Translations under genes and position numbers: made by a program
Shown: piece by piece, positions 2,279 through 62,729 of the stretch
Layout of the letters: every line of letters begins with the position of its first letter
How positions within the stretch are numbered: position 1 is the first letter of the stretch
Notes under the pieces: model-generated
Told to the model about the DNA's origin: nothing
Database searches by the model: none
What the model saw: only the letters and a program-made list of their open reading frames with translations
Assembly (NCBI RefSeq): GCF_000002425.4
Contig: NC_037263.1
Span: 4,495,199-4,559,198, forward strand
DNA: 64,000 nucleotides
Source: Physcomitrium patens
Taxonomy: Eukaryota > Streptophyta > Bryopsida > Funariales > Funariaceae
Direction: 5' to 3'

Positions 2279-2312
2279 TGTTAGGGACATATTCCTTAGA
2301 ACTTTCTAGAGA

Positions 2313-2459
2313 GAAGTTTCTAGAACCTTCTAGAAAACAAGCCTTTGGAACCTTCTAGAAGAGAAGTCTCTGGAACCTTTTAGAGAGAAGTTTCTAGAAG
2401 CTTCTAGAAAAGAAGTCTCTGGAACCTTCTAGAAGAGAAGTTTCTAGAAGCTTCTAGAA
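2313..2459 (+). promoter_or_regulatory. Heat-shock-element arrays in the A1 U3 region
   Basis: Three perfect runs of five alternating GAA/TTC units spaced by exactly two bases lie at 2313-2335, 2387-2409 and 2437-2459. Shorter runs lie between them (for example 2348-2360 and 2422-2434). Alternating inverted nGAAn pentamers are the binding site of heat-shock transcription factors. They sit about 150-290 bp upstream of the TATA box, a suitable distance for an enhancer. In the 3' LTR of A1 the second and third arrays have each lost a unit by point mutation. Heat induction itself is an inference. Confidence 0.82.
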
Positions 2460-2605
2460 AAGAATCCCCTGGAACTTTTTAGAAGCTTCCTAGTTAATAG
2501 AAGTAGCTCGAGAAGTTTCTAGAGCCTTCTAAAAAGGAAGCCTCTGGAACCTTCTAGAAGCTTCCTAGTTAATAGAAGTAGCTCGAGAAGCTTCCTAAGT
2601 AGGAG

Positions 2606-2613
2606 TATATATA
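2606..2613 (+). promoter_or_regulatory. TATA box of the A1 5' LTR
   Basis: TATATATA is present in the same context (AGTATATATAGG) in the LTRs of A1 and A2, with TATATATT in A3. The sequence matching the self-priming complement begins 33 nt downstream, which is a normal distance for a plant transcription start. Confidence 0.8.
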
Positions 2614-2775
2614 GGGATCGAGGCTGAAGAGTTCTTCAATCTTGACAACACATCTCTTGGAGTTTTAGCTCACCTTTCTGGTGTTGTTCTTGTACTCATC
2701 TGTTTAATCTAGTTCTGCCACTTCTTCTTGAACTTCTTGTTAGATTTCAAGTCTGTATTTTGTGTCCGTGACAGT

Positions 2776-2786
2776 TTGTCGAGACT
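2776..2786 (+). other. Putative self-primer binding site of A1
   Basis: TTGTCGAGACT starts two bases after the LTR end. It is complementary to AGTCTCGACAA, found in the R region of related LTRs. In A1's own 5' LTR the partner (2639-2649) has two transitions and in its 3' LTR one, consistent with decay. A tRNA-Met-like sequence (AGATATCAGAGC, 2798-2809) lies further downstream and has lost the leading TGG. Confidence 0.65.
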
Positions 2787-4576: not shown

Positions 4577-5009
4577 TGTCATGGACATATATTGGAATAT
4601 TCTTCGAATATTCTTCTAAAATATTCTCTAAAGATTCTCTAAAGATTCCTTTAGAAGGTTCTAGAAGATTCTTAGAATATTCCCTAAAGATTCTTTTAGA
4701 AGGTTCTAGAATATTCTTAGAAGGTTCTAGAATATTCTGATAGATTCTAGGAAGTTGCTCGAGAAGTTTCCTAATTAGTAGAAGTTGTTGGAGAAGCATC
4801 CTAGTTAGCGGAAGTAGCTCGAGAAGCTTCCTATTCAGTAGTATATATAGGAGTCGAGGCTGAAGGGTTCTTCAGTCTCGGCAACACATCTCTTGGAGTT
4901 CTAGCTCACCTTTCTGGTGTTGTTCTTGTATTCATCTGTTTAATCTAGTTCTACCACTTCTTCTTGAACTTCTTGTTAGATTTCAAGTCTGTATTTTGTG
5001 TCCGTGACA
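4577..5009 (+). repeat. A2 5' LTR
   Basis: This LTR begins TGTCATGG and ends GTGACA. U3 is made of AATATTC, TTCTAGAA and AGAAGGTTC motifs and is unlike the U3 of A1. The TATA box (TATATATA) is at 4842-4849. The candidate transcription start CAGTCTCGGCAA is at 4873-4884, and R-U5 is shared with A1 and A3. Two perfect 18-bp heat-shock arrays lie at 4699-4716 and 4720-4737. Confidence 0.97.
4699..4737 (+). promoter_or_regulatory. Tandem heat-shock elements in the A2 5' LTR (21-bp minisatellite, 2 copies)
   Basis: Each 21-bp unit holds four perfect alternating units, GAA-TTC-GAA-TTC with 2-bp spacers, followed by TTA. There are two copies here and three in the 3' LTR (10437-10454, 10458-10475, 10479-10496). 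The array lies about 105 bp upstream of the TATA box. Copy-number change between the two LTRs of one element shows that this regulatory minisatellite is unstable. Confidence 0.83.
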
Positions 5010-5011
5010 GT

Positions 5012-5023
5012 TTGTCGAGACTG
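5012..5023 (+). other. Putative self-primer binding site of A2
   Basis: TTGTCGAGACTG, starting two bases after the LTR end, is a perfect 12-nt complement of CAGTCTCGACAA in the 3' LTR (10632-10643). It is complementary with one G-U pair to the same site in the 5' LTR (4873-4884). That site begins 31-32 nt after the TATA box. In the yeast element Tf1 the first 11 nt of the RNA anneal to a site directly after the LTR and prime reverse transcription; this matches that geometry. Confidence 0.72.
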
Positions 5024-5032
5024 CATTTTCAC

Positions 5033-5044
5033 TGGTATCAGAGC
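5033..5044 (+). other. Initiator tRNA-Met-type primer sequence, displaced from the LTR
   Basis: TGGTATCAGAGC is the standard plant retrotransposon site complementary to the 3' end of initiator tRNA-Met. It lies 23 nt after the LTR end instead of 0-5 nt. A1 and A3 carry AGATATCAGAGC at the same place, lacking the TGG needed to pair with the tRNA CCA end. It may be an alternative or a vestigial primer site. Confidence 0.6.
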
Positions 5045-5059
5045 TACTTCCTTCTTGTT

Positions 5060-5245
5060 AGAGAGTGGATTACCCCTCTTCTTGAAGGTGTGCTAGTGTT
5101 TTAGAGGTTGCGGATTACCCTCCTCTAAACTGATATCTCTTCTTTCTCAATATTGGAGCCTTATTCTTCTTAGAGAGAGTGGATTACCCCTCATCTTGGA
5201 GTCTTAAGGCGTTTTAGAGGTTGCGGAGTATTCTCTTGTGAACCA
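5060..5245 (+). other. A2 leader with GGATTACC hairpin motifs
   Basis: GGATTACC occurs at 5067, 5112 and 5181, with a degenerate fourth copy near 5225. These are the same positions and flanks as in the A1 leader. The leader then runs to the gag start at 5313 without another gene. Confidence 0.55.
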
Positions 5246-5312: not shown

Positions 5313-6314
5313 ATGGCTGAAAGTTTGGAATCCAAACTAGACGCCATCATAAATGCTCTTGCCTCGTTGTCACATAGGACAACAGAGATCGAAGGAGTCA
5401 TGGTAGGACTCCATAACAATGGAGCATCTGGGATAGCGCCATCTAAAGCATATCAGCCTCAAACTTCTGCGCCAGAAGAAGCAGTTCTACCTCCATTTCA
5501 ACAAGATCGAGTAGTCCTACAACGAAAGGAGCCTTTAGTTAGTCTTCCGGATAAGTTTGATGGAACTCGTTCCAAGTTTCGAGGTTTTGTCAACCAAATC
5601 AGGTTGATAACAATTTTACAGCCCGAACGTTATCCGACGGAGGAAGTGCGTGTTGGGCTTGTTGGAACCTTGCTTACAGCACAAGCTCTGTCTTGGTTTA
5701 CTCCCTTGTTCGAGAAGCGATCGCCAATCCTGAGCAACTTTGAAACGTTCTTGGAGGCGTTTGCAGAAGCATTTGGCGAGCATGATAAAGTTCGATGGAC
5801 TACAACAAAGATCCGATCGCTACGACAAGGAACACGCTCTGCATCAGTCTATGCCTCGGATTTCAGACAATTGGCAAGTGACATTAATTGGGGTGAAGAG
5901 GCGTTGGTGAGTCAGTTTTATTGGGGCTTGAAGGATGATGTGAAGGACTTGCTGTTATCTCTTCCTGATCCTCAAACGCTCAACGAAGCTATTAGCCAAG
6001 CTGTAAAGTGTGACAACCGCCTATTCCAGCGTCGCCAAGACCAACGTTTAAGACACCAAATGACTCGTTACGACGTGACTATGTCTGCAAATAGCTTAAA
6101 CTCACATTCGGAGGCAACAGACATGCAAATCGACACGGCGCGTGTCCGATCTCTTACTCCAACAGAGAAGAAACGGCGTATGGAGGAAGGGTTATGTTTG
6201 TACTGTGGAGAAGAAGGTCACAAGGTTGGAAATTGCCCAAAGAAGCAAAATTGGCACCCTGTCAAGACTAGAAGTGCGATGATTCCGGAAAACGACGACG
6301 CCCAGCCACAGTAG
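5313..6314 (+). CDS. gag: Gag polyprotein of A2 (capsid and CCHC nucleocapsid)
   Basis: This intact 333-residue frame begins MAESLESKLDAIINALASLS. The order is an N-terminal helical part, a retrotransposon-type capsid domain (about residues 75-240, with LPDKFDGTRSKFRGF, LVGTLLTAQALSWF, VSQFYWGL, LPDPQTLNEAI), an arginine-rich stretch, and one zinc knuckle CLYCGEEGHKVGNC (from about residue 295), which fits CX2CX4HX4C. It binds and packages the element RNA into cytoplasmic particles. The A1 and A3 gag genes are colinear but broken. The stop TAG at 6312-6314 lies in a short overlap with pol, which is in the -1 frame. This is the only complete gag in the window. Confidence 0.95.
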   Translation: MAESLESKLDAIINALASLSHRTTEIEGVMVGLHNNGASGIAPSKAYQPQTSAPEEAVLPPFQQDRVVLQRKEPLVSLPDKFDGTRSKFRGFVNQIRLITILQPERYPTEEVRVGLVGTLLTAQALSWFTPLFEKRSPILSNFETFLEAFAEAFGEHDKVRWTTTKIRSLRQGTRSASVYASDFRQLASDINWGEEALVSQFYWGLKDDVKDLLLSLPDPQTLNEAISQAVKCDNRLFQRRQDQRLRHQMTRYDVTMSANSLNSHSEATDMQIDTARVRSLTPTEKKRRMEEGLCLYCGEEGHKVGNCPKKQNWHPVKTRSAMIPENDDAQPQ

Positions 6315-6319
6315 GAACC

Positions 6320-9300
6320 GTGCGGCTGGACAATCTAATATCACGACAACAATCAGGTTCCTCCTTCTCTGTCCAACCTGCCCGTTGTTTTACAATTCCT
6401 TTGTTTTTAGGCCCTCAAAAACAAAAAACTTTAGCTTTATTGGATTCGGGGGCATCTACTTGTTTTTTAGATGAAGAGTTTGCTAAACGCCACAAGATCC
6501 GTTTAGTACAGAAGTCCAAACCTGTTCACGTAGAGGTGATAGATGGACGACCCTTATTGTCAGGCAACGTTACCCATGAATCAGAACCTATAGAAGTGGT
6601 GTTTAAGGACCATAGTAGTTACGTTATTTTTAATATTATTAGAACCCCATCAAGCCCTGTTATCCTTGGTCTTTCTTGGTTAGAAGATCATAATCCGTCC
6701 ATTGATTGGAGGCTACGAAGGATAATATTTCCTAAAAAAAATAATAATAAACCTGTTGGTAGAACCTACATGAAGAAATCCATATTTATTGGAGCGAGAG
6801 CGTTCCTAAGATCGTCCAAAGAAGGCGCACCATTTGTCATTTATGCAGCTCCAACTAGCGGCAAGAATATCTCAACATCGAATATACCAGAGCAATATAG
6901 GGATTTTGAAGACGTGTTTCAGAAGAAGAACACTGATATACTGCCGGAACATCGACCATATGATTGCGCCATAGACTTAGAGGAAGGAGCGCAACCACCT
7001 TTTGGTCCAATATACAACCTATCGCAGACGGAGTTGGCAGAATTGCGGAAGTACATCGATGAGAATCTAGCCAAGAATTTTATTCGACATTCAAAGTCGC
7101 CAGCTGGAGCACCAATCCTATTCGTGAAGAAAAAGGATGTCTCACTGCGGATGTGCGTGGACTACCGAGGACTCAACAAGGTGACCAAGAAAAATTGCTA
7201 TCCCTTACCTTTGATCTCCAGCCTCTTAGATCAACTTGGACGTGCAAGGATTTTTACAAAGATTGATTTAAGAGGAGCCTACAACCTTGTGCGAATCAAA
7301 GAAGGAGATGAATGGAAGACAGCCTTTCGTACAAGGTATGGCCATTTTGAGTACAATGTCATACCTTTTGGTCTTACCAATGCTTCAGTGATCTTTCAGC
7401 ATATGATGAACGACATCTTTCGGGAGTACCTCGATGACTTTGTTGTCATCTATCTGGATGATATTTTGATGTTTTCCAAGAATGAAGAAGAACATGAGAA
7501 GCACGTTTGTTTGGTTCCTGAAAAACTACGCGAACGAGGACTCTACGCCAAGTTGGAGAAGTGTCAATTTCACCAGAATGAGATGGAATTTTTGGGCTTC
7601 ATTGCGACTACAGAGGGCTTGAAGATGGATCCAAAACAGGTAGAAGCAATTATATCTTGGGAAGTTCCGAAGACGGTTAGAGATGTTCAGTGTTTTCTTG
7701 GATTTGCTAACTTCTATCGGATCTTCATCAAGAATTATTCTCAAGTTGCTGCACCACTCACGCGTCTAACAAGCAAAGACAAGCTCGAATGGGGATCACA
7801 AGCAGCAAAAGCATTTCAAGATCTCAAGACGGCATTCACTACGGCTCCAATCTTTGTACACCCTGACTTTGCAAAGGCTTTCTATTTAGAGACCGATGCT
7901 TCAGATTTTGCTTTGGGAGCTGTGCTTTCACAGATGGGCATAGACAAGAAGCTTCACCCAGTTGCATTCTATTCACGGAAGTTCTCTGCTGCTGAGATCA
8001 ACTACAAGATCCACGACAAAGAGCTGCTTGCTATAGTGGATGCCTTCCAAGAGTGGCGTCACTTCCTCGAAGGAGCTGCACATCCAGTGACTGTTTATAC
8101 GGACCACAAGAATTTGGAGTACTTCATGACAGCTCGAATTTTGAATCGTCGTCAAGCTCGATGGAATATGTCTCTATCACGATTTGACTTTATTATCACC
8201 TACCGCCCTGGAAAACAGCAAGGATTATCTGACGCATTATCGAGGAGATCGTATCTTGTGCCAAAGGCTAGAGAAGCAGCGTTTGATCAACAATGTACAA
8301 CATTGTTGAAACCAGAAAAATTCAGGATTTTTGCTACTGTTGCAACTATCGATGACGGCTTCCTCAGCGAGGAACGTACTGCGACCATTGAGGATTCTAT
8401 AGCTCTTGACATCAAACAACGTGTCGATAATGACAAGTTTAAGGTGGAGGGAGATCTTCTGTATTTTGAGGAGCGGTTGTATATCCCAAAAGGACCAACT
8501 CGACTCCGAGTACTTCAATCTCGCCACGACTTTCCAACTGCGGGACATTTTGGATTCAACAAGACTTTGGAGCTCATTTCACGAGATTTTTGGTGGCCCC
8601 AAATGTGGAAGGATGTGAAGGAATTTGTCCTTTCTTGTGATGTTTGTTCAAGATCCAAGATCCCTCGACATCGTCCGTATGGACTTCTCTAGCCATTGCC
8701 TATTCCGCACCGACCATGGTCTTCAGTTTCTATGGACTTCATTACGGATCTACCGCCATCGAATTCATTTGACAGCATCTTTGTTGTGGTGGATCGATTT
8801 ACAAAGGTGGCGCATTTCGTGCCTTGCAAGAAAACATCGTCAAGTGAAGACACCGCAAGACTCTTTCTTGATAACATATATCGTTATCATGGCCTACCAG
8901 ATGATATCGTGTCGGATCGAGGTACTCAGTTTGTATCCAAGTTTTTGAGGTCCCTCTTTGAGATATTGAAGGTGGATATTAAGCTCTCTTCGGCTTTTCA
9001 TCCTCAAACTGACGGTCAAACGGAGCGGGTGAATCAAGTTTTGGAGCAATATTTACGATGCAGCATCAACTATCAACAAGATGATTGGACTGCATATCTA
9101 CCGCTTGCTGAGTTCGCATACAACAACACTCTTCATGCGTCAACTCAACAAACACCATTCTTCTCCAACTACGGATACCACCCCAAGCTCGATTTATTGA
9201 GTTCTTCAGCAAATAACAACCCAGCAGCTGAAGGATTTGTGAAGCAACTATCGGAGCTTCAAGCAACGTTGAAGCTTCAATTGCAATCTGCCCAAGAGAG

Positions 9301-9790
9301 TTACAAGGCATCTGCAGATAAATATCGAAATGAGGCGCCTACTTTTAAAGTTGGAAGTAAAGTATGGCTTCTTCGACGGAATATCAAGACCAAGCGGCCA
9401 TGTGACAAATTGGACTATCGGAGATTAGGGCCATTTGTTATCGGGAAGCAGATCAATCCGGTGGCATATCGTCTGGAGTTACCAGCTACTATGAAGATAC
9501 ATCCAGTCTTTCACGTGTCTTTGTTGGAACCTTATCGAGAGTCAGCTTTTCCCCAAAGAGTACAAAGTCCGCCACCAAGTATCGAAATTGAAAACCATGA
9601 GGAATACGAGGTGGAAAAGGTACTAGATTCACGACGTAATAGAAGAAAATTGGAGTATTTAGTGCATTGGAGTGGATACGACATCAATGAACGAACGTGG
9701 GAGCGTGCCAAAAATCTTGCCAATAAGCCAAAAAAGGTACAAGAATTTCATCAACGATATCCTCATAAACCTAAGTCGATTCAACGATAG
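6320..9790 (+). pseudogene. pol: Pol polyprotein of A2: protease, RT, RNase H, integrase with chromodomain; one in-frame stop
   Basis: The frame is open from 6272 and has no ATG near its start; it lies -1 relative to gag. Counting from GTG 6320, the first 790 codons hold the protease (LLDSGAS, D42), RT (FVKKKD, VDYRGLN, YLDD at 378-381), RNase H (TDAS D526, DKELL E569, YTDHKN D595, DALSR D638) and the integrase zinc finger (H736, H743, C773, C776). TAG at 8690-8692 interrupts it where A1 and A3 read CAG. The same frame then continues from 8696 to 9790 with the integrase core (D14, D73, E109 of that part, a D-D35-E triad), the GPF module (RRLGPF) and a C-terminal chromodomain (YLVHWSGY...ERTWE). 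The chromodomain defines the chromovirus clade and probably directs integration to marked chromatin. All catalytic residues are present, so one substitution event separates it from an intact frame. Confidence 0.95.
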
Positions 9791-10314: not shown

Positions 10315-10768
10315 TGTCATGGACATACATTGGAAGATTCTTCGAATATTCTTCTAGAATATTCTCTAAAGATTCTCTAAAGATTCCTTTAGAAGGTTCT
10401 AGAAGATTCTTAGAATATTCCCTAAATATTCTCTTAGAAGGTTCTAGAATATTCTTAGAAGGTTCTAGAATATTCTTAGAAGGTTCTAGAATATTCTGAT
10501 AGATTCTAGGAAGTTGCTCGAGAAGTTTCCTAATTAGTAGAAGTTGTTGGAGAAGCGTCCTAGTTAGCGAAAGTAGCTCGAGAAGCTTCCTATTCAGTAG
10601 TATATATAGGAGTCGAGGCTGAAGGGTTCTTCAGTCTCGACAACACATCTCTTGGAGTTCTAGCTCACCTTTCTGGTATTGTTCTTGTACTCATCTGTTT
10701 AATCTAGTTCTACCACTTCTTCTTGAACTTCTTGTTAGATTTCAAGTCTGTATTTTGTGTCCGTGACA
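10315..10768 (+). repeat. A2 3' LTR
   Basis: This LTR is 454 bp and identical in layout to 4577-5009 but with a third 21-bp heat-shock unit (10479-10496). The TATA box is at 10601-10608. The R-region sequence CAGTCTCGACAA (10632-10643) is a perfect complement of the self-primer site. It is followed by the target repeat TAAGA (10769-10773) and then by A1 pol. Confidence 0.97.
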
Positions 10769-14266: not shown

Positions 14267-14761
14267 TGTTAGGGACATATTCCTTAGAACTTTCTAGAGA
14301 GAAGTTTCTAGAACCTTCTAGAAAACAAGCCTTTGGAACCTTCTAGAAGAGAAGCCTCTGGAACCTTTTAGAGAGAAGTTTTTAGAAGCTTCTAGAAAGG
14401 AAGTCTCTGGAACCTTCTAGAAGAGAAGTTTCTAGAAGCTTATAGAAAGGAATCCCCTGGAACTTTTTAGAAGCTTCCTAGTTAATAGAAGTAGCTCGAG
14501 AAGTTTCTAGAGCCTTCTAGAAAGGAAGCCTCTAGAACCTTCTAAAAGCTTCCTAGTTAATAGAAGTAGCTCGAGAAGCTTCCTAAGTAGGAGTATATAT
14601 AGGGATCGAGGCTGAAGAGTTTTTCAATCTCGACAACACATCTCTTGGAGTTCTAGCTCACCTTTCTGGTGTTGTTCTTGTACTCATCTGTTTAATCTAG
14701 TTCTGCCACTTCTTCTTGAACTTCTTGTTAGATTTCAAGTCTGTATTTTGTGTCCGTGACA
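14267..14761 (+). repeat. A1 3' LTR
   Basis: This is the 495-bp partner of 2279-2773. A perfect five-unit heat-shock array remains at 14301-14323. The second and third arrays each lost a unit (TTC to TTT, TTC to TTA). The TATA box is at 14594-14601. The LTR is preceded by the polypurine tract AAAGGAGGGGGTGA (14253-14266) and followed by the target repeat CAATC. Confidence 0.97.
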
Positions 14762-19832: not shown

Positions 19833-20253
19833 TGTCACGGACACAGAATACAGACTTGATATCTACCAAGAAGTTCAAGAAGAACTGGCAAGAACTAGAT
19901 TTATCAGATGAATACAAGAACAACACCAGAGAGGTGAGCTAGAGCTCCAAGAAATGTGTTGTTGAGACTGAAGAACTCTTCAGCCTCGATCCCAATATAT
20001 ACTCCTATTTAAGAAGCTTCTCAAGCAACTTCTATCAACTAGAAAGCTTCTAGAAGGTTCCAGAGACTTGCTTCTAGAAGGTTCCAGAAACTTATCTCTA
20101 GAAGGTTCTAAGGACTATGTCCCTAACATCTTCTACCAACTAAGAAGCTTCTAGAAGGTTCCAGAGACTTGCTTCTAGAAGGTTCTAGAAGCTTGTCTCT
20201 AGAAGGTTCTAGAAACTTGTCTCTAGAAGGTTCTAAGGACTATGTCCCTAACA
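19833..20253 (-). repeat. A3 3' LTR
   Basis: This 421-bp LTR has an internal tandem duplication: the LTR start (TGTTAGGGACATAGTCC on the minus strand) occurs at the true end (20253) and again internally, ending at 20128. This duplicates about 125 bp of U3 with its heat-shock units. Perfect GAA/TTC runs include 20173-20190 (four units) and 20202-20214 (three units). Confidence 0.96.
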
Positions 20254-20788: not shown

Positions 20789-23700
20789 CTATTGTCGAAC
20801 CGGCTTAGGTTTATGAGGATGTTGTTGATGAAACTCCTGTACCTTTTGTGGCGCATTGGTGAGATTTTCAGCTGGCTCCCACGTTCGCTCATTAATGTCG
20901 TAGCCGCACCAATGAACAAGATACTCCAACTTACCCCCACTTTGCCGAGAATCCAACACCTTTTCAACCTCATATTCCTCGTGGTTCTCGATTTCAATAC
21001 TAGGTGGCGGACATTGCACTCTTCCAGGAAAAGATGACTCTCGATAAGGTTCCAATAGAGAAACATGATAGATTGGATGTACCTTCATAAAAGCCGGTAA
21101 CTCCAACCGGTATGCCACTGGATTAATTTGCTTCTGGATGATAAATGGTCCCAATCTTCGATAGTCCAACTTATCACATAGTCGCTTGGTCTTGATATTT
21201 CGTCGAAGAAGCCAGGCTTTGTCTCCAACTTTGAAAGTAGGTACTGGATTCCGAAATCTATCTGCAGACGTCTTATAGGATTCTTGAGCGGATTGTAATT
21301 GAAGCTTCAACATAGTTTGAAGCTCTGATAGTTGCTTCGTAAATCCTTCAGCTGCTGGATTGTTATTTGTTGACGGACTTAATAAATCAAGCTTCGGATG
21401 ATACCCATAGTTGGAAAAGAATGGTGTTTGTTGAGTCGACGCATGCAGGGTGTTGTTATATGCAAACTTGGCTAGCGATAGATATGCAGTCCAATCGTCT
21501 TGCTAATAGTTGATGCTGCATCGTAAGTATTGTTCCAAGACTTGGTTCACCCGTTCCGTTTGACCGTCAGTTTGAGGATGAAAAGCCGAAGAAAGCTTGA
21601 TATCCACCTTCAGTATCTCAAAGAAAGATCTCCAAAACTTCGATACGAACTGGATTCCTCGATCTGATACGATATCATTTGGTAGTCGATGATATCGATA
21701 CACATTATCGAGAAAGAGCCTTGCTGTGACTTCACTGGACGATGTCTTTTTGCAAGGGACAAAGTGTGTCATTTTTGTAAGCCGATCTACCACGACAAAG
21801 ATGCTGTCAAATGAGTTCGATGATGGCAGGTCCGTGATGAAGTCCATGGAAATTGAAGACCATGGTCGACGTGAAATCGGCAATGGCTGTAGGAGTCCAT
21901 AAAGGCGATGCCCAGGATTCTTAGATCTTGAACAGATGTCGCAGGAGAGGACAAAATCTTTCACATCCTTCCACATTTGGGCCACCAAAAATCTCAAGAA
22001 ATAAGCTCCAAGGTCTTGTTGAATCCAAAATGTCCCGCAACTGGAAAATTGTGGCGAGATTGAAGAACTCGGAGTCGTATTGGTCCTTTTGGGATATATA
22101 ACCGCTCTTCAAAGTATAAATGATCTCCCTCCACCTTGAACTTGTCGTCATTGGCACGTTGCTTAATATCAATGGCTACTGAATCTTCAATGGTTATAGC
22201 ACGTACCTGATTCAGGAAGTCAGCATCAATTGGCATAGTAGTAGCGCACAGCTGAAATTGCTTTGGCTTCAACAATGTCATACATTGTTGATCAAACGCT
22301 GCTTCTCCAGCCTTTGGTATAAAATACAATCTCCTCGATAAGGCATCAGATAGTCCTTGCTGCTTTCCAGGTCGATAAGTGATAATAAAATCGAACCTAG
22401 ATAGCAACATACTCCATCGAGCTTGACGTCGATTTAGAACTCGAGAAAACATGAAATACTCCAAATTCTTGTAATCTGTATATACGGTGTCATGTTGTAA
22501 TATAAGTATACAGTGAAAATAAAAAGAAAGGAGAATTTTATTAATATTCTGTTATCTCAAATATTGGGAGCATCAACCAACTCCAGTACAAATACTGAGT
22601 GGTGAAGTTCAGTCACTCCGTTACAGTCAGCCGGGGCATACTGAAATGCTCCGTTCGATTCCAATAACGGGAGTCAGCAGGAAGAGAAGGACCAATTCAC
22701 ACGACGGGTTTGAAGAGCCAATTGGATCCAATTTTGAGAATCCAATCCGGATCTTCTTATCCAATATGAGACCTGAATTGGCCGGTCAGCCCAATGTAGT
22801 CTAATTACGAGAAATCCAGGTCTTACTACGGGTCTTAGCCAATCTGACGCGAGGACCAATTTGACCCAATTACGGGAACATCCAGGTTACTACGGGCATC
22901 TTTTCGAATATGGGACCTGAATTGCTCGGGCGACTCAATGTGGTGCCGATTACGGGGTTCGATTCTGTTTCAGGCTGTCCTGTTCTCTGTGCCGTTTCAG
23001 GAAATGTTGTTTTCGGTAAATGGATTTCTTAAAGGTAAAAATGGAGGAGAAAGCTCTGACAGCGAGAGCCAATTTTGGATCCAAGCTTGACGACGAGAGC
23101 CAATTTCGGATCCAAGCTTGAGGTGGGAGCCAATTCCGGATCTAAGACGGAAGATTGAAGAAATTCAGAGGATAAGGTTAGGGGGGATATAGTTTTGAAA
23201 GGGGGGTTTTTTTTTTTTTCTCTGGAGAATCGGGGGGGAGCTAGTTTTCAAGCTTTTGTAAGGTTACTAGTTCGGTTTTCATTGGAGGTTTTTGAAGATC
23301 AAAGGGATTAGAGAGAGGAGCTTCATGCTTCGGGTCGGGGAAGGAAAGACAGAGAATTTGGATTTTTCTTCTTCGTAGAGTTTTGGGAAGGCTGAGGCAA
23401 TCGCTGCTGAAGTCAGTATTGTAATGATGAATCGAGATTTTTAATGAAGTGGATTTGAATACTCTTGACTGTTTTGTGAAATCGAGTTACGTCTGTGATT
23501 GAAGGATTAAAAGGGCGTCTATAGGATTGAGTATGCGGAGTGAATGAAATTTATTGGGTTAATCTAACAAGATAGTCAGTGGATACAAGATCGTAAGTAC
23601 AAAGCGGTATTGAAGATTAACAGTTTGGGTTGTTCGGGGTTCTCTGTAACGTCTAGAGACCTATCGGCTGGAGCAAAAAGGACTTCGACAAGCAGTCGAA

Positions 23701-26661: not shown

Positions 26662-26941
26662 TCTAAGAGAAGGACAGGAATGACTCTACAAGAAGACAAT
26701 ATTGGTTTAGAGGAGGATACTCCTCAACCTCTAAAATGCCTTAAGAGCTTCAAGAAAAGAGGAAATCCACTCTCTCCAAGAAAAATAAGACTCCAATATT
26801 ATAACAAATGAAGTATCAGTTTAGAGGAGGGTAATCCGCAACCTCTAAAGTGCTAATACACTTCCAAGCAGAGGAGTAATCCACACTCTAACAAAGAAGA
26901 AACTAGCTCTGATATCTGAGGTGAGTGAAGTCTCGACAAAC
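26662..26941 (-). other. A3 leader: self-primer site, degraded tRNA site, hairpin motifs
   Basis: Directly after the 5' LTR on the minus strand lies TTGTCGAGACT (26939-26929), a perfect 11-nt complement of AGTCTCGACAA in its own 5' LTR (27078-27068). That partner starts 32 nt downstream of the TATA-like box at 27103-27110. AGATATCAGAGC at 26917-26906 is the degraded tRNA-Met site. Further on are GGATTACC-type hairpin motifs as in A1 and A2. Confidence 0.7.
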
Positions 26942-27362
26942 TGTCATGGACACAGAATACAGACTTGATATCTACCAAGAAGTTCAAGAAGAACTGGCAA
27001 GAACTAGATTAATCAGATGAATACAAGAACAACACCAGAGAGGTGAGCTAGAGCTCCAAGAGATGTGTTGTCGAGACTGAAGAACTCTTCAGCCTCAATC
27101 CCAATATATACTCCTATTTAGGAAGCTTCTCAAGCAACTTCTATCAACTAGGAAGCTTCTAGAAGGTTCCAGTGACTTGCTTCTAGAAGGTTCTAGAAAC
27201 TTATCTCTAGAAAGTTCTAAGGACTATGTCCCTAACATCTTCTACCAACTAAGAAGCTTCTAGAAGGTTCCGGAGACTTGCTTCTAGAAGATTTTAGAAG
27301 CTTGTCTCTAGAAGGTTCTAGAAACTTGTCTCTAGAAGGTTCTAAGGACTATGTCCCTAACA
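26942..27362 (-). repeat. A3 5' LTR
   Basis: This is the 421-bp partner of 19833-20253, with the same internal U3 duplication. Heat-shock-type GAA/TTC runs occupy the distal half (about 27150-27340). The TATA-like box is at 27103-27110 on the minus strand. Confidence 0.96.
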
Positions 27363-59644: not shown

Positions 59645-59697
59645 TTTTTTCAAGTTCAAGTTTATAATTTTATTTGACTTTATATTTTAAGGTACGT

Positions 59698-61370
59698 TGT
59701 CGTGTTGTAACACGAGTATACCGTGAAAATATAAAGAAAGGGGACTTTTATTAATGTTCAGTTACCTCGAATATTGGAAGCAACGACCAACTCCAGTGCA
59801 AATATTGAGTGGCCAGGTTCAGTCACCCCATTACAGTCAGCCGGGGCATACTGAAATGCTCCGTTCGATTCCAATAATGGGAGTCAACATGAAGGAAAAG
59901 GACCAATTCACACGACGGATGAGCCTAGTTTGAAGAGCCAATTGGATCCAATTTCAAGAATCCAATCCGAGTCTTCTTACCCAATATGAGACCTGAATTG
60001 GTCGGGCAACCCAATGCAATCTAATTACGGGAAAATCCAGGTCTTACTACGGGCCTCAGCCAATCTGATGTGAAGGACCAATTTGATCCAATTACGGGGA
60101 CATCCGGGTCTTACTACTGGACTGTTAGCCAATATGAGACCTGAATTGGTCGGGCGACTCAATGTGGTCCCGATTACGGGGTTTCGATTCTGTTTATGGC
60201 TGTCCTGTTTTCTGTGCCGTTTCAGGGAACGTTGTTTTCGGTAAAAGGATCTCTTAAAGTTAAGAACGGGGAAGAAAGCTCTGACGGCGAGAGCCAATTT
60301 CAGATCCAAGCTCTAACGGTGGGAGCCAATTCCGGATTCAAGACGGAAGGAGCCAATTCTGGATCCAAGACGGAATATTGAAGAAATTCAGAGGCTAGGG
60401 TTTGAAAGAGGGGAGAATTAGGGTTAAAAGGGAGGAAGGTTAAGAAATGGAGGGGATTTTTTTCAGATCGGGGTTTTTTTGGATCAAAGAGCTAGCTTCA
60501 AGCTCTTTTCAAGGTCACTAGTTTGGTTTCATTAGGGTTTGTGAGGGGAGAGCAATCACTGCTCAAAGTCAGTGTTTATTTTGGTGTTTCGGATTTTATA
60601 TAAAACATTGATGGTTTGCATTCTCAAATGGTTTGTGCAAGTCGTGTAGCATCTATGGATCAAAATTTGGTATTGTCTGGATAGTTGGGTGTGTTAAGTA
60701 TATACAAAAATTTGTGTTAATCTAACGATGCAATCAAGAGATATCTGGGTTTTAGTACAAAGGGTTGTCAGAAGTTGGTTGTCTAGGGTTGGATAGGGTT
60801 TCTAAGATATCTGAAGATCTACTAGTTGGATCGACGTAATTTTTAGCTTGGTAATGGAAGATTTGGAGATCAAGCGGCTATTCAATTTTGAGCTAGAGTT
60901 AACGGTTGACAAACGAGAAATCACTTCTGGAGTTTCTACATCAAATTTCAAGGTTGCGGCCGAGTGTCATCAGTGCGGACTTTGGGCGTTTTCTTGCAAT
61001 CTGTAAGTTGAGTTGGACTGAAATTTTTTGAGCATATAGAAGGCTTATACTGGTATTTGGGTGCAAAATTTCACACTAAGTGGACGGCTGGATCAAAAGT
61101 TACAGCTTGTCAAAGCTCACTGGCTAGGATTAGGGCTTGTTAAGAAAAACAAAAACAACTTAATTATAAAAGAAATAAAGCAATTGGAATATTGTATGGT
61201 TAAAATGACTATGAGGAGTATTTTTAAATCCTTGGAAATTGATATTTCAACTATATTCTTCATACATAGATAAAATCTATTAGGATTTCTTTATTATTTG
61301 CAAAAACAACTATATCTTCCACAGCCAAATACCTAGTGTATTCCCGAACAAGACAACATTTAATACGAGA
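59698..61370 (+). repeat. Family B 5' LTR
   Basis: About 1670 bp from TGTCGTGTTG to TACGAGA, where the solo LTR ends TACGACA. It is related over its whole length to the solo LTR at 22488-23853 but about 300 bp longer. It contains direct repeats of a module around GACCTGAATTGG and ATTACGGG (for example near 59985 and 60140), and three copies of GAGCCAATT...GGAT..AAG at 60288-60370. The primer site and coding region follow. Confidence 0.88.
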
Positions 61371-61515: not shown

Positions 61516-62729
61516 ATGCACATGAATCCGTCTATTGCTAGTATGTTTCAAGCCTTCTCATTATCAATGCAGCAACAGTAAAGCAATGATCGAAACGAAG
61601 CTTTGGCAACCAAAACATTGCAAGCAACGGACAATAAAATTGATCAATTTGATAGGAGGATCCTGTTGAGTCTCTTTCAGTTCATGCATATATTGCTAAG
61701 AGCCAACATGAAGCTTTGATGGAAGAAAAGAGACGAGGAAATTTTGATGATACTAGAGAAGGAAATTCTTCTAAGAGGCAAACTCGAGGAGAGAAGGCTC
61801 GGGAGGCAGCTTCACAAGAATTGCCTATAAAGGATACCTGAGCATCATTGGGAGAAAAAACAAAGGAGACAAAAGATAAAGGCAAATCAATTGCTTATAA
61901 GCTACTTTCTGACATTGAAGCGGCAACAAATTTGAAAGGGGTGTTGGAAGAACGTATATTAAATGCTAAGGTGGAATTCACATTGAAAGAAGTTTTGAGA
62001 ATTGCAAAGAAGGAGTTTCATGATGTTATCATTGACAGCATTAAGCGAAAGAGGCAATTAATGGGCGAAACCGGAATGAGTCATGCTATTGATGCAAGAA
62101 TATATAGAGATGAAGAAGAGGTTGATATTGGTTACAAGCAACCAACAAATGAAAAGAATGGATATAATCAACGAGTACGTTTTGAAGATTATAGTGACAA
62201 GGAAATGGAAACTTCGAGCCATTATAGTCGAAAGCATTGGACAAGGGCAACTATTGAGGTATTGGTGAAAGTAGGAGATATAGAAGAACCAATTGTTGCT
62301 TTAGTCGACCATGGTTCTGAAATAAATCTCATGTCTAAAGATCTTTACAAGAAGCAAAAATAGCCAATTGATATGGAACATGGATGGAAAATTCGAGCAG
62401 CTAATAACACACGGGGCGAATTATATGGAGCTTGTCCAGATGTCAAAATTCGGATTAGGGATGTTGCGATAGAGCAACATTTCTTTGTTCAAGATACAAT
62501 GTCTTATCTGTTGATTTTAGGAAAACCTTATATTACGGCAACATGGATGGAAACAAAAGTACTTGACGATGGTTCTGCTTATGCAAGGATACATAGCGAG
62601 GATGGGAGGAAAGCTGTACAATTTCTAACAGTACCTCCTAATCATGAACGGAATCGAGATAGGTTGAGGGAGAAACCATTGCCAAAGATTGTTGAAGGAT
62701 TTAAGGATTTTGGAGAGGTACCACTGTAA
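61516..62729 (+). pseudogene. Family B gag remnant and aspartic protease region (broken)
   Basis: A gag start at 61516 (MHMNPSIASMFQAFSLSMQ) breaks off near FDRRI at about 61663. The text then resumes in another frame (ESLSVHAYIAKSQHEALMEE), so most of the capsid core has been deleted. TGA at 61839-61841 and TAG at 62361-62363 interrupt what follows. The protease region reads VALVDHGSEINLMS, with D-H-G-S in the active-site position instead of D-S/T-G. It continues from 62373 (MEHGWKIRAANNTRGELYG, LILGKPYITATWMET, LDDGSAY) to TAA at 62727-62729. Such a D-x-G-S-E form occurs in some Ty3-type elements, so the histidine may be natural. Confidence 0.8.

Follow-up and report, generated by a model that had tools for sequence, protein, structure and literature searches.

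The 64,000-nt window (the whole stretch of DNA analysed) comes from the moss Physcomitrium patens, a non-seed plant, and carries three LTR retrotransposons, A1, A2 and A3, whose features are collected in Table 1. A1 is split by the inserted A2. The two LTRs of an element differ by 11 substitutions in 495 positions for A1, 10 in 433 aligned positions for A2 and 13 in 421 for A3. A repeat of approximately 600 nt (pieces 87–90% identical) lies within A3 at nt 22483–23087 and occurs again 37 kb off, at nt 59693–60312. An open frame at nt 61842–62363 has a weak match to DUF4100, below the family cut-off, and looks like part of another retroelement.

Table 1. Features of elements A1, A2 and A3 in the window (TSD, target site duplication; PBS, primer binding site).
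Feature	Position	Strand	Remarks
A1 5' LTR	2279..2773	+	TSD CAATC; 3' LTR at 14267-14761
A1 primer site AATCTTGACAA	2638..2648	+	in 5' LTR
A1 PBS TTGTCGAGACT	2776..2786	+	
A2 5' LTR	4577..5009	+	ends TGTCATGGACA...TGTCCGTGACA; LTR pair, TSD TAAGA on both sides
A2 TATA box TATATATA	4842..4849	+	primer start 32 nt on
A2 U3 arm	4853..4865	+	complementary to putative RNA start; hairpin with 4870-4882, 4-nt loop
A2 self-primer site AGTCTCGGCAA	4874..4884	+	putative RNA start at 4874 (C/A, TATA + 32)
A2 spacer GT	5010..5011	+	2 nt between LTR end and PBS
A2 self-primer binding site (PBS) TTGTCGAGACT	5012..5022	+	
A2 iMet-type site TGGTATCAGAGC	5033..5044	+	23 nt behind LTR; rejected as primer site
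A2 gag	5313..6311	+	Pfam Retrotrans_gag, Ty3_capsid
A2 pol open frame	6272..8692	+	RVT_1 in 6800-7500; TAG end in frame with integrase part
A2 integrase part, Tf2-type SH3 and chromodomain	8693..9790	+	Pfam SH3_Tf2-1 5.7e-20, Chromo 2.1e-16
A2 3' LTR	10315..10768	+	paired with 5' LTR; TSD TAAGA
A2 3' copy of U3 arm and primer	10612..10643	+	13-bp hairpin by folding
A3 5' LTR	26942..27362	-	TSD CATAG; 3' LTR at 19833-20253
A3 primer site AGTCTCGACAA	27068..27078	-	
A3 PBS TTGTCGAGACT	26929..26939	-	

The pol frame of A2 is -1 relative to gag and overlaps it by 43 nt (nt 6272–6314), an arrangement that suggests a programmed frameshift. This copy is broken, since an in-frame TAG (nt 8690–8692) interrupts pol ahead of the integrase core. 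By eye, the chromodomain retains three aromatic residues (Y, W and Y in EEYEVE and HWSGY) at what we take to be the cage positions. The leader (nt 5045–5245) contains repeated GGATTACCC blocks with short complementary flanking arms, duplicated in A1–A3 and fewer in the related copy L003 (described below). These repeats were ruled out as a structured signal, their fold (z-score -0.31) being no better than that of shuffles.

A first-pass annotation had proposed that A2 primes its own reverse transcription in the manner of Tf1 of fission yeast, on the strength of a 12-nt complementarity between the sequence directly behind the 5' LTR and a site in the LTR placed 31–32 nt past the TATA box. The complementarity is present: nt 5012–5022 pair with nt 4874–4884 through one G-U, and perfectly with the copy in the 3' LTR (nt 10633–10643, AGTCTCGACAA), and the TATA spacing was measured at 32 nt (4842 to 4874). 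Its twelfth pair (4873/5023) occurs in A2 and in L003 but is missing from A1 and A3. The claim of a perfect 11-nt match at the same places in A3 was borne out (27078–27068 with 26939–26929, 11/11), the primer again starting 32 nt from the TATA box, and the imperfect version described for A1 was also found, with 10/11 pairs counting one G-U. In both LTRs of A1 the site is AATCTCGACAA or a derivative of it, whereas AGTCTCGACAA would fit the A1 PBS; either the pairing was already imperfect when A1 inserted, or both LTRs have since changed.

The target duplications fix the LTR ends of all three elements and thereby place the start of the PBS 2 nt past the CA of the LTR. At the 3' LTR of all three, the duplication directly follows ...TGACA, which puts the cDNA end at the self-priming PBS: a cDNA begun there would end in CA plus GT, and retroviral integrases trim two bases at this position. 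The corresponding spacer is GT, GC, GA or AT in relatives.

A first look through the P. patens genome with the A2 LTR and leader gave 1,382 candidates; 40 of these, A2 among them, were scored, and all match. The perfect pair is present in 38 of the 40, the other two being A2 itself and an LTR without a following PBS. Five further genome copies comprise one with 11/11 pairing, two with 10/11, one with an intact PBS and no partner within 350 nt, and one without the LTR end motif. On the contig of the window, which was sampled as 14 stretches of 10 kb (five adjoining the window and nine spread), a second subfamily has the primer ACTCTTGTCAA and the PBS TTGGCAAGAGT (L037) or TTGACAAGGGT (L044), each pairing through 10 Watson-Crick pairs and one G-U; its gag (L044) is 42% identical to that of A2 over 249 residues. 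At the corresponding spot in another copy, L038:3369 (ATTCTTGTCAA, gag 33%), a decayed site is seen (8 Watson-Crick and 2 G-U pairs of 11); this copy was left out of the covariation table described below, while L037:2124 and L043:4403 are LTRs without a following PBS. Among the 120 gag relatives listed, the one bearing a name is a P. patens protein; residues 62–268 of this protein (P0088) have a 98% match in the genome of the window and at most 92% at the other listed places (143 scored of 19,048 candidates). A fungal host, which the look of the RT might suggest, is rejected in view of this homologue and of the genome, both of which point to moss. A2 probably belongs to the abundant P. patens chromodomain family RLG1, which is transcribed, with expression in protonema, and makes up 47% of the class I space of this genome (PMC7466625, in its available text).

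When genome contigs of bacteria and archaea were scanned with the gag alignment, four plant-like contigs came up. One of them, L003 (gag 81% identical), is from a cyanobacterial bin and the other three are from a Trichormus bin. Trichormus is a symbiont of the fern Azolla, so the plant-like retrotransposon contigs in this public bin (L004–L006, L010–L012 and L025–L028) are probably fern DNA that contaminates it. In a search of both bins, 18 matches fell on 13 contigs, and the perfect 11-nt pair was found at the same places in L003, the one matching contig of its bin, and in six of the 12 Trichormus-bin contigs with a gag match (the fern-like loci). The remaining Trichormus-bin contigs are L025, with 7/11 pairing; L026, in which the primer site is present and a PBS was not found; C263 and C433, which are cut off and were judged by coordinates; L027, which has a gag match and in which no such LTR was seen; and L028, which represents another element and has TTGGTATCAGAGC as an ordinary iMet motif. 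L003, L004, L005 and L006 recur as L007, L008, L009 and L013, and each entered the counts a single time; L029, L030 and L031 are fuller versions of L011, L010 and L012. Two further candidates, L001 and L002, were rejected as chance phage matches, and three other scans of viral contigs found no relatives.

Covariation of the two sites, the check proposed in the first-pass annotation, was assessed over 12 loci (A1, A2, A3, L003, L037, L044, L004, L010, L011, L012, L005 and L006). These share a common geometry, with the PBS 2 nt after CA, the primer 31–32 nt after the TATA box (34 in L006) and a primer ending in CAA. The letters themselves differ: AGTCTCGACAA/TTGTCGAGACT is found in A3 and L003 and, with changes, in A2 and A1, AAGGCGAACAA/TTGTTCGCCTT in L004, L010, L011 and L012, AAGGTGAACAA/TTGTTCACCTT in L005, and CTCTTGATCAA/TTGATCAAGAG in L006. 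Positions 1–8 of the 11 have changed on both sides, while positions 9–11 (CAA/TTG) are invariant in the 12 loci. Each primer paired with its own PBS gives 127 Watson-Crick pairs out of 132, and PBSs permuted among the loci give a mean of 83.6 and a maximum of 125, with 127 reached in none of 100,000 permutations, a figure that is not a strict probability because the loci were chosen for their layout and are related to each other. In a gag tree of nine rows the branches are long; the moss-like copies group together, and the fern-like copies without L006 do so less firmly. In Tf1 the primer can be copied into a new PBS, so that primer and PBS evolve together; copying, and not selection alone, may thus account for the covariation, and both fit self-priming. 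The joint change of primer and PBS from moss-like to fern-like copies is, at the level of sequence comparison, strong support for the self-priming that the first-pass annotation proposed.

A1, A2 and A3 are thus very probably self-priming chromodomain Ty3/gypsy elements, presumably of the moss and club-moss Tcn1 kind, kin of Tf1/sushi, for which the layout has precedent (PMC6317226 and PMC10085805, in the parts available). Judging by the TATA spacing, transcription of A2 would start at nt 4874, and the first 11 nt of the RNA, being complementary to the stretch that begins 2 nt past the 5' LTR, would fold back onto it. By analogy with Tf1, RNase H would then cut after nt 11, between CAA and CAC, and the freed 3' OH would prime minus-strand DNA. 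The resulting cDNA would end in CA plus 2 nt, which integrase would trim, in keeping with the LTR ends seen.

Priming of A2 by initiator tRNA-Met at nt 5033–5044, as in most plant chromoviruses, with another role for the 11-nt complement, is improbable, although the 12-nt site TGGTATCAGAGC, which we take to be identical to the plant initiator tRNA-Met PBS, is perfect in A2. Of the 40 scored copies, counting A2, 39 have the full site, a figure that is biased because the query contained the site. Its core, TATCAGAGC, recurs 10–14 nt behind the PBS in A1 (nt 2801), A3 (nt 26914, minus strand), L037:9563, L044:709 and L043, but in all five the TGG, the partner of the CCA end of the tRNA, is missing, and the core is absent from L003, which has a leader without the block, and from the fern-like self-priming loci. 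A tRNA site would also be expected within a few nt of the LTR. That of A2 lies 23 nt away, too far to explain the LTR ends, and integrase would need to trim all 23 nt, whereas the target duplication directly follows CA in A1, A2 and A3. The displaced site may be a relic of tRNA priming, or it may pair with CTAGCTC in R to make a crossing duplex (p 0.03–0.17 in A1–A3).

The predicted self-priming fold was examined in RNA extending from the putative start to 40 nt beyond the PBS, for ten loci (the 12 without L037 and L044). The helix of primer and PBS has a mean probability of 0.72–0.99 in eight of the ten and of 0.00 in A1 and A3, and it is part of the minimum-energy fold in seven, that of A2 not among them. 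In Tf1 two more duplexes stand beside this helix and complete a pretzel (PMC10085805, as far as its text was available). The inner duplex, between the stretch behind the primer (AGTTGCGG and similar) and the LTR end (CCGTGACA and similar), is present in the six fern-like loci (shuffle p 0.007–0.14), weak in L037 (p 0.08) and L044 (p 0.48), and was not found in A1–A3 or L003 (p about 1). For the crossing duplex, p is 0.02–0.05 in L004, L005 and L006 and above 0.7 in the other six loci outside A1–A3.

A further pairing partner of the primer, the U3 arm, lies between the TATA box and the putative RNA start. Arm, loop and primer read GTCGAGGCTGAAG-GGTT-CTTCAGTCTCGGC in A2, GTTCGCCTTGGT-CCCA-ATCAAGGCGAAC in L004 and GACAAGAGTGAAG-CCTT-CTTCACTCTTGTC in L037. 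A stem scoring at least 9 was found in nine of ten loci and also in L037 and L044, giving 11 of 12; the shuffle p is 0.022 for A1 and at most 0.002 for the other eight of the nine, and L006 fails (p 0.21). Since the arm is included in the transcript at the 3' LTR but not at the 5' LTR, the hairpin would lock the 3' copy of the primer and leave the 5' copy free to prime at the PBS. In 11 of the 12 loci, the computed binding of the PBS is -10.3 to -16.7 kcal/mol to the 5' copy of the primer and -2.0 to -6.0 kcal/mol to a primer preceded by its U3 (represented in this computation by the U3 of the 5' LTR in place of that of the 3' LTR), while in L006 the values are -12.8 and, with U3, -11.8. Shuffled U3 sequences gave means of -5.7 to -12.3, and at most 10% of 50 shuffles masked the primer equally well in those 11 loci. 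By computation, therefore, the U3 hairpin would mask the 3' copy of the primer and not the 5' copy, and the model suggests that it keeps the PBS from the wrong RNA end, though it could equally be a promoter palindrome. We put forward only tentatively, as a proposal that may well prove wrong, that the masking hairpin tells the identical RNA ends apart and that the U3 arm, the primer and the PBS form a trio of sequences that stay matched as they evolve.

The 11-nt complement might instead serve a fold of the 5' leader RNA (in packaging, dimerisation or translation control), with something else as primer. A leader duplex would also covary, and the U3 arm shows that the primer sequence is able to join a second duplex. 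Priming, however, needs what a general fold does not, namely the constant 2-nt offset from the LTR end and a TATA spacing that hardly varies, and on inspection no other primer site was seen directly at the LTR end of A1–A3, so this reading is a shade less probable even than tRNA priming. Least probable by far is chance or shared ancestry, a single ancestral accident inherited by the copies: A1–A3 and the 40 copies are close kin and their agreement therefore represents one event, but five primer/PBS letter sets keep their pairing through changes on both sides, and when three loci were shuffled by dinucleotides (20,000 shuffles, 45 registers), an 11/11 match (G-U allowed) arose 15 times for A2, 12 times for L004 and once for L006.

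The layout of A1–A3 is of a kind already known, since self-priming has been predicted for most elements of the moss and club-moss Tcn1 clade (Neumann et al. 2019, PMC6317226) and P. patens elements branch with Tcn1 (Novikova et al. 2010, PMC2864245); one P. patens element is also present in the tree of PMC10085805. According to the available text of PMC2864245, no evidence of priming, whether by tRNA or by the element itself, was found for SM-Tcn1 of Selaginella. The first-pass annotation regarded the layout as a departure from tRNA priming, and the latter is indeed the rule in most plant chromoviruses, yet the Tcn1 clade was already on record as a predicted exception (PMC6317226, in the part available). 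A1–A3 resemble this clade (PpatensLTR elements, probably RLG1) in being chromodomain Ty3/gypsy elements of a non-seed plant with a Physcomitrium homologue, and add to it pairing shown by covariation, a hairpin formed with the U3 arm and an iMet site set back from the LTR.

With Tf1/sushi they share a self-primer at the putative RNA 5' end, a PBS behind the 5' LTR, and a Tf2-type SH3 domain with a chromodomain, and the self-primer of Tf1 is likewise 11 nt long. Tf1 differs in having a single ORF, whereas gag and pol of A2 lie in overlapping frames, and its three-duplex pretzel was only partly found in A1–A3 and their relatives. The tRNA-iMet-primed plant chromoviruses (Tekay, Reina, Galadriel and CRM) are also Ty3/gypsy elements with a chromodomain, and A2 has their 12-nt site; in A2, however, this site is removed from the LTR, in relatives it lacks TGG or is absent, and A2, unlike them, keeps the three aromatic cage residues. 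As far as the literature search reached, the new points are the evidence from covariation, the members on fern-like contigs, the hairpin of the U3 arm and the displacement of the iMet site. Mention of the hairpin was found neither in the available parts of PMC6317226, PMC2864245, PMC4600332, PMC10085805, PMC5006619 and PMC3601003 nor in a literature search on self-primer hairpins.

The first demonstration of self-priming came from Tf1 of fission yeast (PMC4600332, as far as available). If the reading given here is true, P. patens has a retrotransposon family that copies itself without a host tRNA and probably occupies a large part of its transposon space, and the moss would offer an abundant plant system for direct tests of self-priming. 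If the U3 hairpin works as proposed, it would also explain how the PBS of a self-primed element is kept from pairing with the wrong end of the RNA.
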